Made by a program: the position numbers and the translations under genes | Shown here: positions 13,882 to 22,908 of the stretch, one piece after another | How positions within the stretch are numbered: the first letter of the stretch is position 1 | Layout: every line of letters starts with the position of its first letter | Notes under the pieces: generated by a model | The model's database searches: none | Seen by the model: the letters and a program-made list of their open reading frames with translations, nothing else | Told to the model about the DNA's origin: nothing | Source of the DNA: Deltaproteobacteria bacterium | Lineage (GTDB): Bacteria; CG2-30-53-67 | DNA: 35,690 nucleotides | Assembly (NCBI GenBank): GCA_013151235.1 | Contig: JAADIO010000036.1 | Span: 1-35,690 of the forward strand | Direction of reading: 5' to 3'

Positions 13882-15444
13882 ATGATCTCTACAAAACCGG
13901 CAACAGGCGATAAATTAGGTGAAATTCTGGTCAAGAACGGCCTCATCGGAGAAGACCAGCTGAAGGAGGCCCTGAAACGCCAGTATCAGCAGGGAGGATT
14001 TCTCGGAACCAACCTGATCATGCTGGGATATATTGATGAAGAAACCCTGATGAATGTCCTCAGCTCGAAGCTGGGCATTCAGAGCATCAATCTGACCGGC
14101 CATGAGATCACCCCCCTCCTCCAGCGGATGCTCCCCTTCGACAAGGTCAAGTTCCACAACGTCCTGCCCGTTGCGCTGGAAGGGAATACATTGATCGTGG
14201 CCATGGCCGACCCCACGGATCTCAAAATCCAGTACGATCTGGAATACACCCTGCGGCGTTCCATCCGCGGGGTTCTGGCCTCGGAAAAGGACATCCTCGA
14301 TGCCATCGCCTTCTTTGAAAAGGAAGGCTACGGGGAGCGGCCTTATACCAAGTCCTGTGTCGTACCCTCATTGCCGGATAAAACGCTCGACATCCGGGAA
14401 CTCCTGAAAGTTACTGTGGAAGAGAATGCCACCGATCTGCTGATTACCGCCGGAGTGGCGCCCTGCCTGAAGATCAACAACAAGGTAACTCGCCTCAAGA
14501 CCCCCTCGCTGACGCCCGGTCAGGTGGAAGAACTGGTTTTTTCGATCCTGACGGAAAACCAGAAAACAAAGTTGCAGCAACAGTCGGCCCTCGAATTCGC
14601 CTACTCCCTTTTCGATATGGGACGGTTCCGGATCAATATCTATTTTCAGCGAGGATCTCTCTCCCTGACCGCCCGGAACCTGATGGAACGGATTCCCTCT
14701 CTCGAAGAGTTGGGCCTTCCCGGCTGGGTCCGGGAGTATGCCTTACGGCCTCAGGGTCTGATCCTGGTCACCGGCCCGGCGGGACATGGAAAGTCAACCA
14801 CCATCGCCTCCCTCATAGAGGTGATCAACACCCATCATCAGTCCAATATCATTACCATTGAGGACCCCATCGAGTTCCTCTTCCAGCATAAGAACAGCAA
14901 CGTCAATCAGCGGGAGGTCGGAACCGATACAGCCTCCTTCTCTGAAGGGTTGAGAAACATCTTCCGTCAGAGTCCCGATGTCATCATGATCGGAGAACTT
15001 CGGGATTACGAAAGCATCTCCATCGCCCTCAGTGCTGCGGAGACGGGGCATCTGGTATTGGGGACGCTCCACACCCTGAATGCCACGGCCACCATCGACC
15101 GTTTGATTAACGTCTTCCCCGGAGATCAGCACAACCAGATCCGGGCCCAATTGGCCGAATCCCTCCTCTTGATCCTCTCTCAACGGCTGGTCCTCTCCCG
15201 GGACGGCAAGAGCCGAGTACTGGCTTACGAAAAGCTGACCCCTTCATCCAGGGTCCGGAACCTGATCCGGATCAAGAAGATCCATCAACTGCGCACCCAG
15301 ATGCTGAACGAACAGGAAGATTTCGAATCGATCGATTCCAGCTTGATCAAACTGGCCAGAGAAGGAAAAATACGGAGGGAAGAAGCCCTGAAGTTTGCCG
15401 ATAACCAGAACTTTGTAAATGACATAATCAACAAAAAGAGGTAA
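13882..15444 (+). CDS. hybrid secretion/pilus ATPase: GspE N-terminal domain fused to a PilT-like motor
   Basis: 520-residue cytoplasmic hexameric ATPase of the type II secretion/type IV pilus superfamily. Residues 10-145 are a T2SSE_N/MshEN-like domain (KLGEILVKNGLIGEDQLKEAL), found in assembly ATPases. Residues 168-520 resemble the retraction ATPase PilT: LLKVTVEENATDLLITAG, Walker A GPAGHGKST (298-306), Asp box IEDPIEF, Walker B PDVIMIGELRD, His box TGHLVLGTLHT, and the PilT-type VRNLIRIKKIHQLRTQM near 458-474. The Walker A has AGH where TGS is usual. It lacks the zinc-binding CxxC module of GspE/PilB. No pilin, PilC or PilQ gene is adjacent. It converges with an operon encoding a pseudopilin-like membrane protein, a possible partner. 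Confidence 0.85.
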   Translation: MISTKPATGDKLGEILVKNGLIGEDQLKEALKRQYQQGGFLGTNLIMLGYIDEETLMNVLSSKLGIQSINLTGHEITPLLQRMLPFDKVKFHNVLPVALEGNTLIVAMADPTDLKIQYDLEYTLRRSIRGVLASEKDILDAIAFFEKEGYGERPYTKSCVVPSLPDKTLDIRELLKVTVEENATDLLITAGVAPCLKINNKVTRLKTPSLTPGQVEELVFSILTENQKTKLQQQSALEFAYSLFDMGRFRINIYFQRGSLSLTARNLMERIPSLEELGLPGWVREYALRPQGLILVTGPAGHGKSTTIASLIEVINTHHQSNIITIEDPIEFLFQHKNSNVNQREVGTDTASFSEGLRNIFRQSPDVIMIGELRDYESISIALSAAETGHLVLGTLHTLNATATIDRLINVFPGDQHNQIRAQLAESLLLILSQRLVLSRDGKSRVLAYEKLTPSSRVRNLIRIKKIHQLRTQMLNEQEDFESIDSSLIKLAREGKIRREEALKFADNQNFVNDIINKKR

Positions 15445-15489: not shown

Positions 15490-15798
15490 TTAGGAAAGCG
15501 GACGAGCATCTCCCGAGACCTCATCCTGCCGGAGCTCCCTTTCCTTCTCCCTTCCGAAGCTCTCCAGAAATTGCCGCACTTCGGGAACCAGATAGGTCTC
15601 TTCAAGGGACAGGCCGGAAAGGGCCCGACCCAGGATTTCTGCTTTTTCCTGGACTGTCAGGGTTTTTCGGATGATGATCATCCGGTCCTCCTTGACACGG
15701 CAGATGCCACCCCGGCTGTTGCACCGCTCATAACGGACCTGAATCGAGAGTTTCTGTGCCAGCATTTCGAGCTGTTCCAGCATCTCCTGTGCATCCAT
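15490..15798 (-). CDS. conserved hypothetical protein, 102 residues
   Basis: A small soluble protein with an N-terminal helix (MDAQEMLEQLEMLAQKLSIQV), a short strand pair containing two cysteines (YERCNSRGGICRVKED) and helices ending LVPEVRQFLESFGREKERE. I recall similar short proteins in deltaproteobacteria but know no function. The SRGGICRVK turn with paired cysteines could bind metal or be structural. The ATG at 15798 follows GAGGATG about 7 bases upstream. It lies 94 bases after the DUF4388 gene on the same strand and may be the last gene of that operon. It converges with the ATPase gene. Confidence 0.65.
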   Translation of the reverse strand: MDAQEMLEQLEMLAQKLSIQVRYERCNSRGGICRVKEDRMIIIRKTLTVQEKAEILGRALSGLSLEETYLVPEVRQFLESFGREKERELRQDEVSGDARPLS

Positions 15799-15892: not shown

Positions 15893-17143
15893 TTACAGAA
15901 CATGTTCTTTGACAATATCATCCGACGTTCCCTCAACCCCATCCGCACCGAAACTTTTCAGGAAGATTGTACGATTTCTGCTCCGGTACCGGTATTTCCG
16001 CCCCCAGGGATCAAACAGCTCCGCCGAGTGGAGAATCCCTTTCCGGACCAGTTCCACCGGATCCTCCGGGAGGACCTGCTCCTCCAGAAAATAGACGTCA
16101 CAGGCAAAAAAGATGCGATCCATTTCCCGGACGGCATAAACATTCCGGATGGGTCCAAGAGAAGTCCCCACACCTCCCGTAATGGCCGTGAGGAGCCCTC
16201 CTGTCGGTTTGCGTGAAGCAAAAACCAGAAGAAGCAGGAATAGGAACATAATCACATACGCGGCAAGATTGCGCAACACCTTCTTTCCGCGGCCCTTCTC
16301 TCCCCTCCTCCCCGCCCCTGCAGGAGTTTCTCCCTTTCCGCTTATCTCCCGGATGAGCCCTGCGGAAACCAGGCTGTACAACGCCTTGCAGGTTTCAAAG
16401 GTTCCGATTCGGCCGAGATGGATCAGTTTCTGTACATCCCGCGTACCTTCCACCAATTGATAAATCCGGACCTCTGCCGGGCTGAGCGGAAATTCCTGAT
16501 CCAGGGTCTCCTTCCGGTCGGACAGGTTCTCTTCCTGTCCCTCCTCAAACATTCGGTCAATTGCACGATCCAGATCCTGTGCAGAAGCATCGATCATTCT
16601 CTTCTCGTCGGTCTTCTCAAAGATCCGGCTGTAATCATGAATGACCTTCCGCACCAGGGGCCATTCATCAATGATCCGCATGGCCTCCATGAGAATCTTC
16701 TCACAGGAGAGGGGAACCATATTGGTATGGTCATAGGTCACCGAAGGTTGCTGCGCAAAACGGTAGATTCCCTCCTGCCAGTCGAAAATCCGGTAGACCG
16801 TCTCCCGAACCTGAAGTTGAATCATGCTGGCCAGATCTTCCGCCCGGACCAGGTTCTCTTCTACCAGAATATGACCCAGTTTCCGTCCCGTCTCTTTCTG
16901 CCGGGCCAGTGCCCTTTCAAGATCCTGTTTCGAGAGAAGCTCCGATTCCACCAGCGCCCACCCGATGAGATCACTTTTCTTTTTTCGATAGGATTCCGCC
17001 GCCACCACCATCCCCGCCTCAAAGGTGAGGGTCGCCGTATCCTCCCCAGCGGTCAGCGTAAGGATTCCTGTCTTCTTCTGCATCCCGATCAACTGCAGGA
17101 TATCCGTTATGCCGAAATCTTTGATGTTTCCTTCAAGAGCCAT
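15893..17143 (-). CDS. DUF4388 protein with transmembrane anchor and pseudopilin (GspG)-like C-terminus
   Basis: 416 residues from ATG 17143 (MALEGNIKDFGITDILQLIG), where the DUF4388/PatA-type domain begins; the longer frame adds no domain. Residues 1-60 are DUF4388. Residues about 60-130 have paired helices like those in T2SSE_N (LLSKQDLERALARQKETGRKLGH..LVEENLV), also seen in the adjacent ATPase. A predicted winged-helix-like segment lies at 218-267 (EFPLSPAEVRIYQLVEGTRD). A basic Gly-rich linker (270-288) and one transmembrane helix (291-309) follow. The outer part ends with LFDPWGRKYRYRS and SFGADGVEGTSDDI, very like the C-terminal calcium-binding loop of the major pseudopilin GspG. It would link cytoplasmic signalling to a pseudopilin-like periplasmic domain. 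It starts 32 bases after the TPR gene. Confidence 0.75.
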   Translation of the reverse strand: MALEGNIKDFGITDILQLIGMQKKTGILTLTAGEDTATLTFEAGMVVAAESYRKKKSDLIGWALVESELLSKQDLERALARQKETGRKLGHILVEENLVRAEDLASMIQLQVRETVYRIFDWQEGIYRFAQQPSVTYDHTNMVPLSCEKILMEAMRIIDEWPLVRKVIHDYSRIFEKTDEKRMIDASAQDLDRAIDRMFEEGQEENLSDRKETLDQEFPLSPAEVRIYQLVEGTRDVQKLIHLGRIGTFETCKALYSLVSAGLIREISGKGETPAGAGRRGEKGRGKKVLRNLAAYVIMFLFLLLLVFASRKPTGGLLTAITGGVGTSLGPIRNVYAVREMDRIFFACDVYFLEEQVLPEDPVELVRKGILHSAELFDPWGRKYRYRSRNRTIFLKSFGADGVEGTSDDIVKEHVL

Positions 17144-17175: not shown

Positions 17176-19152
17176 TCAATCCTGTAAACGATAGAGATGA
17201 AAACAAGACAACAGATAGACAACCATCACCGGCAGGAGCAACCAGAGATGCCGGCTCCAGGGCACTGCTTCAAAGACCATGACACCCGGGGGCAGGATCG
17301 ACCGAAAAAATCCGGAAACCAGAAGACAGACCACCAGGAAGAGTATGACAAAACCGGTAACCGGCCGTCCGAAATAAATATGGCCGCCGCCGGGAATCAG
17401 GATTCCGAGGATCCTCCCCTTTTCCACCTTCCGTTCCTTGTAACTCAGAATTTCAATGATCTTTCGCGTCCGCATCTTGACATCCACCCCCGCACCTTTT
17501 CCAAAAATATAGGCACATTGTGAGCAGATCGCCTCACGACGCCGGTGACTCTGGCATTTTCGGCAAAAGACGACACCGCATTTTCCGCAACGCCGGGAAT
17601 AACCGCGGAAACGCCGGAGCAGATGAAGGAGCAATGCCACCGGAAGAATCAGCAAGACCAGTCCACCCCGGACAATGATCTTCTTCAGAACCCCTCCTTG
17701 CGACCGGTCGGCCGGCCCGACCGAGAAGAGCGTCTTGAAAAAACCATTCCAGAGATTCCGGTCGGGCAGGACCGTATCAATCACCATCCGGTTGTAATTC
17801 GGGCCCAGGATCTTCACATAATAGGAGACTTCTGCAGGATTCAGTTTCCGGGCTTTGAAATACTCACTGTCACTTTTATCGAGGAGAAAGAGTTCCCGCT
17901 GGACAGCACTGAGATTGAAATGAAAAGCCGCCTCCCTCGGATCGAGAGCAATCGCCTCGTTGTACATTTCAACGGCCTTTTTCAGGTTGCGCATAGCATA
18001 ATAGACATTCCCGAGATTATTGTAATAATCCGCCTCGTTCCCATTCTGATGAATCGCCTTTTCCAGAACCTTCTTCGCCTTTGCATACTCTCCCCGTTTT
18101 TTGTAAGCCGTCCCCAACATGAAAAAGGCTGCGTCATCCTTTGGGAATTGTTCCGTCAGACGGGCCAGACCGGCCACCGCTGCGTCATCGGCGTCTCCGT
18201 CCCGATGACCGAGAATCGACTGCATACGATCACTGGACAGATGTTCCACCCCTCTCTGCAGCATATCCGTCCAGAGGGGTGTTACCAGAAGAAAAAACAA
18301 AAAGAAAAGATGGATGAACCGTTCTTTCCTGCCCGAATAACTCCAGAGGAGGATGAGCCAGAGGACACAGACACCGAAGAGTCCTCCCCCCAGCAGGAGG
18401 GGGGCGGACAAGAGGCAAGCCATGATAATCAACAACCCGGCACGGCTTGGATCGCCCGGCAGCAGTTCGTACAAATCATGATACAACATCCGGCCATACC
18501 GGAGCAACACCACAAGATAGAACACCCCGAAAAAGACAACACCGGCCATCAGGAGAAGAAAGAGACCGTCCATGATCAGGAGTGCGGCGAATTCAAATGA
18601 AAGGACCAGGCTCTTTCCCGTCCGGAAAGCCTCCTCCAGGACTCGGAACAAATTTGCCGGGCTCTGCCGCCAGAGAAGTTCCGCGAGTTTCCAGTGGGTT
18701 TCGGGAAGATCTCCGGCAAAGTCCTCGGCCTTACGACAAAGGCTCAGTGCCTTCTGATAATCTCCCTGAAGTGAGAGAAAATCCGCCTCACGCAACAAGG
18801 ATGCCGCAAAAGTTCGCACTCGAATCGCTCCCAGATCGACCAGCTGCTCATGGATACGATTCAGCAAAAGATCGCTGAGCTTATCATTGCCCAGTGCGAC
18901 GTAACGTTTTCGCAGAAACCATTCTTTTTGCAGTTTCTGAAAGAGGAGCGAAGGGCCCGTGCCGGAAAGTTCCGGGACGGGTCGTTTCAGAATTTCAGAC
19001 GGAACCAGGAGGGGGGAATTATCCTGAATGACATCCATCCATTCATAAGAAACAACAGGGCCCGGGACCAGAAGATCGACGAACAAAAAGAGAACAAGGA
19101 AGAAAACCACGATCTTCCACACCGGCATGGACCGCGACACAGCCTGGTTCAT
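17176..19152 (-). CDS. polytopic membrane protein with TPR repeats, zinc ribbon and TM2-like C-terminus
   Basis: 658 residues, unknown function. An N-terminal hydrophobic segment (11-30) may be a signal anchor. Residues 110-180 look like helical repeats. Hydrophobic helices follow at about 184-218, 238-272 and 279-298. Clear TPRs lie at about 325-440 (AAFFMLGTAYKKRGEYAKAKK, in part; DYYNNLGNVYYAMRNLKKAVE, in part). A helix at 496-512 precedes a four-to-six-cysteine zinc ribbon (RCGKCGVVFCRKC ... ICSQCAYIFG, 521-551). The C-terminus has IPGGGHIYFGRPVTGF, like a TM2 domain, with two more helices. ATG 19152 has GAGGAAGG upstream and overlaps the plsY stop as ATGA, so it is translationally coupled; the 845-residue longer frame runs through plsY and is rejected. 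Its operon place suggests an envelope role. Confidence 0.75.
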   Translation of the reverse strand: MNQAVSRSMPVWKIVVFFLVLFLFVDLLVPGPVVSYEWMDVIQDNSPLLVPSEILKRPVPELSGTGPSLLFQKLQKEWFLRKRYVALGNDKLSDLLLNRIHEQLVDLGAIRVRTFAASLLREADFLSLQGDYQKALSLCRKAEDFAGDLPETHWKLAELLWRQSPANLFRVLEEAFRTGKSLVLSFEFAALLIMDGLFLLLMAGVVFFGVFYLVVLLRYGRMLYHDLYELLPGDPSRAGLLIIMACLLSAPLLLGGGLFGVCVLWLILLWSYSGRKERFIHLFFLFFLLVTPLWTDMLQRGVEHLSSDRMQSILGHRDGDADDAAVAGLARLTEQFPKDDAAFFMLGTAYKKRGEYAKAKKVLEKAIHQNGNEADYYNNLGNVYYAMRNLKKAVEMYNEAIALDPREAAFHFNLSAVQRELFLLDKSDSEYFKARKLNPAEVSYYVKILGPNYNRMVIDTVLPDRNLWNGFFKTLFSVGPADRSQGGVLKKIIVRGGLVLLILPVALLLHLLRRFRGYSRRCGKCGVVFCRKCQSHRRREAICSQCAYIFGKGAGVDVKMRTRKIIEILSYKERKVEKGRILGILIPGGGHIYFGRPVTGFVILFLVVCLLVSGFFRSILPPGVMVFEAVPWSRHLWLLLPVMVVYLLSCFHLYRLQD

Positions 19153-21293: not shown

Positions 21294-22106
21294 CTATTCA
21301 AAAACCTTTTTCTCGACGGAAGTTCGTCCGGGATTATTTTTTTTCAGATCCCGGGCAAGCGCTTCATCGACAAGCCGCTTGGCCTTCCGGGCCGACTGAT
21401 AAGCACCGTCTACCTTTTTCAGAATCTCCTTGAAGTCAAAGGAGTGCCATTTCACCTTGGATGCCTTATACTGCTGCTCCGCCTCTTTCAGAACCTCCGC
21501 CGCCCTTGCAACATCAACCCCCCGGCTCTCTGCCATTTTGATAAACTCGGCACTCCACTGAAGGGTATTCTTGGCGTAGAAGATTAGTCCGAGTGTGGCA
21601 TGGGCCTCTTCAGGGATCTGCTGCGGCAAACCACTTTCGGGATGGTGACATTTACGGCAGGCCTCCGCCACATTTTCAGGAAACAGGATGGAGGTATGCA
21701 TCGATCCGTGACAGGTAACACAGGTCGGTCCGTGGAATTTATGATTTCCTGCACGGATGGCTCGATAGTGTTTGCTGCGGAGAAATTCTTTCAGCTGGGG
21801 GCGATGACATCCCCCGCAAAGTTGCGGGATGTTCGCCCGGAAAACGGGACTGGCGGGATCGGAAGGGTCAAGGACATCGCGATGGGCCTCAGCGAATGAT
21901 ACCGCACCCGGGTTCCCGCCGTGACACCTGTCGCACGTGATGCCGGATTTTGCATGGGCCGTCCCCTTCCAATCAATATAGGCCTTTCCGACCGCCGTCT
22001 GCTCTCCCAACGATGCATGGCACTTTTCGCAGGAGTGTGCCTCAATACAGGGCGAAAAGAGCCTGAAAAAAGTGATCAGTAATATCAGTTTCCACCGGAT
22101 TCGCAT
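21294..22106 (-). CDS. periplasmic five-haem c-type cytochrome
   Basis: 270 residues from ATG 22106, preceded by AGGGGTG. Residues 1-24 form a signal peptide (RWKLILLITFFRLFSPCIEA). CxxCH motifs occur at about 26-30, 58-62, 97-101, 129-133 and 150-154, in the first 60 percent of the protein. The rest (about 160-270) is helical and lysine-rich with no haem (VARAAEVLKEAEQQYKASK), a feature of small multihaem proteins of anaerobic respiration where the C-terminal helices pack against the haem core. Conserved extra histidines (KAYIDWKGTAH, SKHYRAI, NHKFHG) could be axial ligands. It is the last gene after tkt-zwf-pgl, starting 10 bases beyond pgl, so it is very likely co-transcribed. Redox partner unknown. 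Confidence 0.85.
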   Translation of the reverse strand: MRIRWKLILLITFFRLFSPCIEAHSCEKCHASLGEQTAVGKAYIDWKGTAHAKSGITCDRCHGGNPGAVSFAEAHRDVLDPSDPASPVFRANIPQLCGGCHRPQLKEFLRSKHYRAIRAGNHKFHGPTCVTCHGSMHTSILFPENVAEACRKCHHPESGLPQQIPEEAHATLGLIFYAKNTLQWSAEFIKMAESRGVDVARAAEVLKEAEQQYKASKVKWHSFDFKEILKKVDGAYQSARKAKRLVDEALARDLKKNNPGRTSVEKKVFE

Positions 22107-22116
22107 GAAGCACCCC

Positions 22117-22908
22117 TTAGCCGTCCTTCCCCCCGGCAGCATCCCGATCGATATACCAGTAGAGTTCCCCGGAAAGAGGCCGCACACCACGGGCCGGAAT
22201 CTCCGCCACACTCCCCGGCTGCAAAACCCTGTTCAACGGCTCTCGCTTCCCCTTCCCCGATACGAGAAACAGAACCGCCCCGCTGCGGTTCAGGAGAGGC
22301 AAGGTCAGGGTAAGCCGCCGGCGAATTCCCTGCGGCGAGACCGCCGGAACAACAAGTCGGTCTTTTTCTTCCAATGAAGCGGACCGGGGAAACAACGATG
22401 CCGTATGACCGTCATTGCCCAGCCCCAACAGGACCAGGTCCAGCCCATCCGATCCGGTCTCCGAGAAATAACGCCTCAATTCCTTTTCATATTGCCGGGC
22501 ACCCTTTTCCGGATTGAGTTCACCCTGCATCCGGTGAATGTTTCCTGCGGGGATATCGATTTTAGACAGGAGTTCCTCACAGACCATCCCGAAATTACTC
22601 TTTCCATCCTCCGGCGGAACGCAACGCTCGTCGCCCCAGTAAAGATCGATTTGCTCCCAGGGGAGTTGCGCAGAATATTCCGGCATTGCCAGCAAACGGT
22701 AGAGCCGCCTCGGTGTCGAACCACCCGAAAGGACTGCGGAAAAACGACCTTTTCCCCGAATGGCCGTCAAGGCACTCGATAGAAAGAACTCGGCTCCCGC
22801 CCGGCTGAGCGCCTCCGGATCGGAAAAGACCCGGATATTCCGTCCGACCTGATTCACGAATTCACTCAAAATTGAAGGAGGCGAACTTTCTGAAAAAGCG
22901 TCCTTCAC
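22117..22908 (-). CDS. pgl: 6-phosphogluconolactonase
   Basis: About 263 residues; hydrolyses 6-phosphogluconolactone, the product of Zwf. Family motifs are AVLSGGSTPRRLY, the YWGDERCVPPEDGKSNFGM region and LLGLGNDGHTASLFP. The start is uncertain. TTG at 22920 and GTG at 22908 are both possible, and the GTG overlaps the zwf stop as GTGA; DevB-type enzymes usually begin nearer NIRVFSDPEAL, so the first 25 residues may be extra or the true start may be a later GTG. Overlap with zwf implies tight coupling of the two oxidative pentose phosphate steps. Confidence 0.92.
   Translation of the reverse strand: MKDAFSESSPPSILSEFVNQVGRNIRVFSDPEALSRAGAEFFLSSALTAIRGKGRFSAVLSGGSTPRRLYRLLAMPEYSAQLPWEQIDLYWGDERCVPPEDGKSNFGMVCEELLSKIDIPAGNIHRMQGELNPEKGARQYEKELRRYFSETGSDGLDLVLLGLGNDGHTASLFPRSASLEEKDRLVVPAVSPQGIRRRLTLTLPLLNRSGAVLFLVSGKGKREPLNRVLQPGSVAEIPARGVRPLSGELYWYIDRDAAGGKDG

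Follow-up and report, generated by a model that had tools for sequence, protein, structure and literature searches.

Related systems

Pilins require a prepilin motif for their processing and assembly. The DUF4388 domain, which we take to be the PATAN domain, is carried together with a helical insertion by PatA, PixE, PixG and LsiR, and the cyanobacterial PATAN regulators also contain a CheY-like receiver. The insertion, which is alpha-helical, was described in 2006 (in a reference cited in PMC7690835). PATAN regulators of Synechocystis are reported to bind the type IV pilus (T4P) motor PilB1 (PMC10519157; PMC12288463; see also PMC7690835), and PixG reportedly binds PilC as well (PMC10519157, PMC12288463). 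Among the proteins listed as co-occurring with SgmX, a pilus regulator, are PATAN proteins and TPR proteins of Myxococcus xanthus (PMC11580455), which may or may not belong to the family described here. The c-di-GMP site of the MshEN domain, which is found at the N-terminus of the ATPases MshE, PilF and PilB, consists of two motifs of 24 residues each, set 5 residues apart (PMC5013675). Finally, a Ca-binding consensus, G-x-D-G-x-x-[GN]-[TN]-x-D-D, was published for pseudopilins and peroxidases (PMC3396595).

In the window, i.e., the whole stretch of 35,690 nucleotides that was analysed, one gene encodes a protein, below called the receptor, in which a PATAN/DUF4388 domain with an MshE-like motif inside it is followed by a winged-helix-like stretch, a transmembrane (TM) helix and a pseudopilin-like domain. 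Its features are:

15893..17143, minus strand: receptor gene, 416 aa, ATG at 17143
16661..17134, minus strand: DUF4388 (PATAN) domain, residues 4-161 (Pfam PF14332, E 2e-34)
16811..16969, minus strand: MshEN-type tandem motif, residues 59-82 and 88-111, within the DUF4388 match (NF053729, PDB sequence matches, spacing)
16328..16507, minus strand: winged-helix-like stretch, residues 213-272 (weak matches alone)
16214..16285, minus strand: single TM helix, residues about 287-310 (helix 2-25 of the model; hydropathy scan of 81 members)
15896..16156, minus strand: pseudopilin (GspG)-like domain, residues 330-416, a long helix and a three-stranded sheet (Pfam, family profile, AlphaFold model)
15917..15949, minus strand: candidate GspG/PERCAL-type calcium loop GADGVEGTSDD, residues 399-409 (sequence, published consensus)

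The receptor has the PATAN domain and the helical insertion in common with PatA, PixE, PixG and LsiR, but, unlike the cyanobacterial regulators, it lacks the receiver, is anchored in the membrane and has a periplasmic domain. No description of this fusion was found in the retrieved papers on DUF4388 or on PATAN together with MshEN.

Architecture and cytoplasmic part of the receptor

The architecture of the receptor and its conservation are firm. Each of the six genomes of the family to which the window organism belongs has an intact orthologue, those of the five relatives sharing 52-77% identity with the window protein. A genome scan across bacteria and archaea, the kind of survey that had been proposed when the protein was first noticed, found this architecture at no fewer than 80 additional loci. 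The fusion of two genes by an assembly or sequencing error, named at that time as what could undo the proposal, is ruled out by these full-length orthologues, and its probability is negligible.

Since the N-terminal domains are cytoplasmic in nature and there is a single TM helix, the ~290 residues ahead of this helix are assigned to the cytoplasm and the C-terminal domain would be periplasmic; the positive-inside rule, applied to 81 members, gave 34 for this orientation, 41 against it and 6 ties.

The DUF4388 domain, which the sequence-only reading had recognised, scores 118.7 bits with PF14332 (cut-off 25). The T2SSE_N-like helices mentioned in the same reading were found to correspond to the MshE-related c-di-GMP motif of NCBIfam NF053729, which matches residues 60-109 (E 3.5e-13; 49.1 bits against a curated cut-off of 38), and the PDB chains that the cytoplasmic part resembles in sequence are N-terminal domains of PilF, MshE and PilB. 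The two 24-residue motifs of the insertion are separated by 5 residues, which is the MshEN layout. As in MshEN, the motifs contain Gly61, Leu79, Gln82 and Gly90, invariant in 81 members, and nearly always Gln111 (80 of 81). In contrast to MshEN, the tandem motif lies inside DUF4388, and the first Arg and the turn Gly residues are often lost; in the window receptor the Arg is replaced by L59 and both turn Gly by E68 and N97. The published relaxed tandem pattern is satisfied by only 3 of the 81 members, the window receptor not being among them, and the motif core is retained by 46 of 81 compared with none of 16,200 shuffled sequences. In the divergent members L008, L122 and L123 the tail is retained and the tandem motif is degenerate. 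Because the window genome encodes 13 GGDEF domains, c-di-GMP is probably made in this organism, and judging by the motifs its binding by the receptor is plausible.

The pseudopilin-like periplasmic domain

The C-terminal domain of the receptor has the GspG fold. Pfam T2SSG matches residues 367-410 at E 2e-5 (25-28 bits, above the curated cut-off of 21) and the C-terminal part alone at E 1.9e-6; taken singly, 63 of the 70 C-termini of the family match it at E up to 1, the best at 6.7e-10. The C-terminal sequence alone gives a weak match to GspG in the PDB, and with a profile of the 70 C-termini the best eight matches are all GspG chains (8.6e-6 to 0.053). The AlphaFold model of residues 286-416 (pLDDT 89) consists of the TM helix, a linker of low confidence, the long helix and a sheet of three strands. 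Its three best matches in the PDB are GspG structures (probability 0.99-1.00; TM-score to target 0.53-0.60), with type IV pilins ranking next. The likeness to GspG that had been read from DPWGRKYRYRS and SFGADGVEGTSDDI in the C-terminal region is thus borne out by structure prediction. At the same time, TIGR01710, the GspG equivalog, gives 19.2-22.1 bits, far under its cut-off of 88.85.

All 81 proteins have Pro359 and Leu365, and 79 of them have Pro379. The segment GADGVEGTSDD of the window receptor fits the pseudopilin Ca-binding consensus and may thus be a calcium loop. The exact motif is present in only 3 of 81 family members, most members have no such loop, and the myxococcal proteins stop short of its position.

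In addition to the fold, the DPWG motif and the three-stranded sheet, the receptor in the window clade has the candidate calcium loop in common with GspG/PulG/EpsG, the major T2SS pseudopilin. It differs from this pseudopilin in that it has neither a prepilin motif nor an N-terminal TM helix, begins with ~290 cytoplasmic residues and has a linker between the TM and the long helix. There is no prepilin-peptidase motif of the G/A-F-T-L-x-E type before the TM helix, which is located at residues 287-310 and not at the N-terminus, and therefore the receptor cannot be processed or assembled as a pilin. That it is a normal pilin is thereby ruled out, in agreement with the sequence-only reading.

Pseudopilins with a normal prepilin motif and unusual features were seen at two loci. 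The one at L112:1342-2109 (own genome C54), of 255 aa, apparently contains two tandem T2SSG-type globular domains and is adjoined by a ClpA-like AAA protein; the other, of T2SSG type, at L114:916-1728 (own genome C32), has an unusually long insertion ahead of DPWG.

The partner protein and the gene neighbourhood

The receptor is encoded next to an invariant partner gene, which lies directly upstream of it. In the window the genes around the receptor are:

17176..19152, minus strand: invariant partner, 658 aa, directly upstream of the receptor (TPR, Cys4, model)
15490..15798, minus strand: 102-aa open reading frame directly downstream of the receptor, no family (conserved in position in L031-L034, 55-82% identical)
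13882..15444, plus strand: convergent gene for an ATPase of the PilT/PilU family, with an MshEN domain and c-di-GMP motif at the N-terminus (TIGR01420, 401 bits)

The partner (~650 aa) directly precedes the receptor in 78 of 81 loci, the remaining three being too near contig ends, and the 11 receptors of the first test set, which are divergent or tail-less, all have it upstream as well. Its predicted order is a periplasmic N-terminal helical domain, TMs, a periplasmic TPR domain, a TM, a cytoplasmic zinc ribbon with four cysteines (C522, C525, C543 and C546, all invariant) and two TMs. By the positive-inside rule the loop charges point to a periplasmic location of the TPR domain and a cytoplasmic one of the zinc ribbon. 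Beyond the TPR there is no family model for the partner in Pfam or NCBIfam, and a Foldseek search with its structure model (pLDDT 87) returned generic TPR proteins and nothing more specific.

The periplasmic (TPR) segment of the partner has 167-222 residues (median 190) in the original full-tail set and 150-160 residues in the genomes with short-tail receptors; L124 is an exception, with the pseudopilin-like domain present and a partner segment of 161 residues. Because the partner segment is shorter where the receptor tail is short, there are hints that the tail and the TPR domain touch, the correlation of lengths coming from one or two clades.

No T4P or T2SS gene cluster was found beside the pair in the loci examined. 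Its neighbours are housekeeping genes that vary by phylum: prfB, lysS, plsY, pgsA, and genes for PhoH-like proteins and DnaK. The sole pilus-type neighbour seen is the PilT-like gene, which occurs in the family of the window organism and adjoins the pair in the four genomes of this family that were checked. Elsewhere in the window, positions 21294-22211 of the minus strand may encode a multihaem cytochrome c7/c3-like protein beside pentose-phosphate genes.

Distribution and variation of the tail

The receptor loci belong mainly to Myxococcota and Acidobacteriota, with some in bins that are labelled Nitrospirota or unplaced. The receptor is near core in the Myxococcota sample (106 of 116 genomes) and was found at E <= 1e-50 in 64 of the 149 Acidobacteriota genomes sampled; it is missing from two other genomes of the class of the window organism. 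In the tree of the cytoplasmic part the window protein stands beside the Myxococcota branch (96/81).

Some Acidobacteriota receptors have just 19-44 residues after the TM helix, or an unrelated segment of ~76-97 residues in place of the usual tail. The altered tails form three groups in the tree (short, alt and alt2), with three changes in all; thus, about three losses or replacements of the tail took place in Acidobacteriota, with the core and the partner retained, and the pseudopilin-like tail is dispensable. In L132 and L133, both from Acidobacteriota, an unrelated periplasmic domain of ~76-87 residues takes the place of the pseudopilin-like fold. The partner gene, the c-di-GMP-type motif within DUF4388, the wide distribution and the changes of the tail all go beyond the sequence-only reading.

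Relation to type IV pili

As the T4P marker we used the platform protein PilM, counted over its cut-off; PF00482, another pilus platform protein, is present in 32 of 33 genomes and is thus uninformative for co-occurrence. PilM is near-universal in genomes carrying the receptor: it was found in 45 of 47 carriers of one sample, in 22/23 carriers versus 6/10 non-carriers in Myxococcota and in 40/40 versus 16/20 in Acidobacteriota. When the two phylum samples are pooled (62/63 versus 22/30), Fisher's test gives p 4e-4 with relatedness ignored. T4P are common in carriers and non-carriers alike, and the co-occurrence is weak evidence because most genomes of both kinds have them. Loss of the tail is not linked to loss of T4P, PilM being present in all 20 tail-altered carriers.

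Possible roles of the receptor-partner pair

We tentatively prefer, at somewhat less than even probability, the reading in which receptor and partner form an inner-membrane module that acts on the T4P machine, with the receptor as its signalling half and the pseudopilin-like domain serving for docking. The cytoplasmic PATAN domain with its MshE-type insertion would sense or bind a ligand, the likeliest candidates being c-di-GMP and a pilus-family motor or platform protein, and one membrane helix would join it to a periplasmic pseudopilin-like domain that does not polymerise. The second protein would contribute the periplasmic TPR repeats and the cytoplasmic zinc ribbon. Through contacts of the PATAN domain with the motor or the platform, and docking of the pseudopilin-like domain to the TPR domain of the partner and/or to pilins, the module might adjust the T4P machine (or the T2SS where present) to the cytoplasmic state. 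The membrane topology, ligand binding, contact with the pilus machine and the direction of signalling in this scheme are inferred. A more specific variant, in which a c-di-GMP-controlled mimic of a pseudopilin docks on the pilus platform or pilins under the PATAN/MshE-type sensor and the TPR partner, and from the periplasm initiates, caps or blocks the assembly of pili, is rather unlikely.

The main alternative, which we regard as possible though not probable, is that the pair has no tie to pili and constitutes a general envelope signalling complex, the pseudopilin-like fold having been recruited only to give the TPRs of the partner a small domain to interact with in the periplasm. The phylum-dependent housekeeping neighbours, the absence of the Ca loop from most members and the retention of core and partner where the tail is lost or replaced are all in line with such a complex, but PATAN domains have documented T4P partners, T4P are enriched in carriers, and the pseudopilin-like domain occurs across phyla and is recognisably GspG-like in 63 of 70 members. 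It is improbable that the receptor is a membrane transcription regulator of the ToxR/CadC type, in which periplasmic sensing by the pseudopilin-like domain would alter DNA binding by the winged-helix-like stretch. The receptor is similar to ToxR and CadC in having one TM helix, a periplasmic domain and a possible cytoplasmic winged helix, to which residues 213-272 show matches in few members. However, these matches are weak (TrmB at 0.0039 in 3 of 28 members, other wHTH families, and a PqqD-type chain as the best PDB match at 0.034), the putative winged helix is not N-terminal but sits between the signalling domain and the TM helix, and the receptor, unlike ToxR and CadC, has a PATAN domain and a TPR partner.

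If the protein were a plug or receptor specific to the T2SS, mimicking GspG within the pseudopilus, this would account for a fold that is nearest to GspG and fit the T2SS gspF-G-H-I set of the window genome. We consider such a role still less probable, given that the GspG model cut-off is reached in only 21 of 48 carrier genomes, that most Acidobacteriota carriers have PilM and no second GspL-like match, that the flexible linker parts the TM from the long helix, unlike in the continuous helix of a pilin, and that the tail is dispensable. The sequence-only reading had suggested a membrane receptor or plug serving either a pilus or a secretion machine. A receptor acting on pili is plausible in view of the reported PATAN binding to PilB1 and PilC and of PilM in carriers, and a T2SS plug is disfavoured.

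Concluding remarks

In this contribution, we described a pair of membrane proteins that is near core in Myxococcota, common in Acidobacteriota and yet without a functional name for either the receptor or the partner in the papers and family libraries that were searched. Pilin folds are known to serve as building blocks, and here a pseudopilin fold is retained across phyla as the outer domain of what would be a non-polymerising signalling protein. Since Myxococcus is a standard T4P organism, signalling to the pilus machine by a protein with a pilin-like domain, if it takes place, is directly testable.
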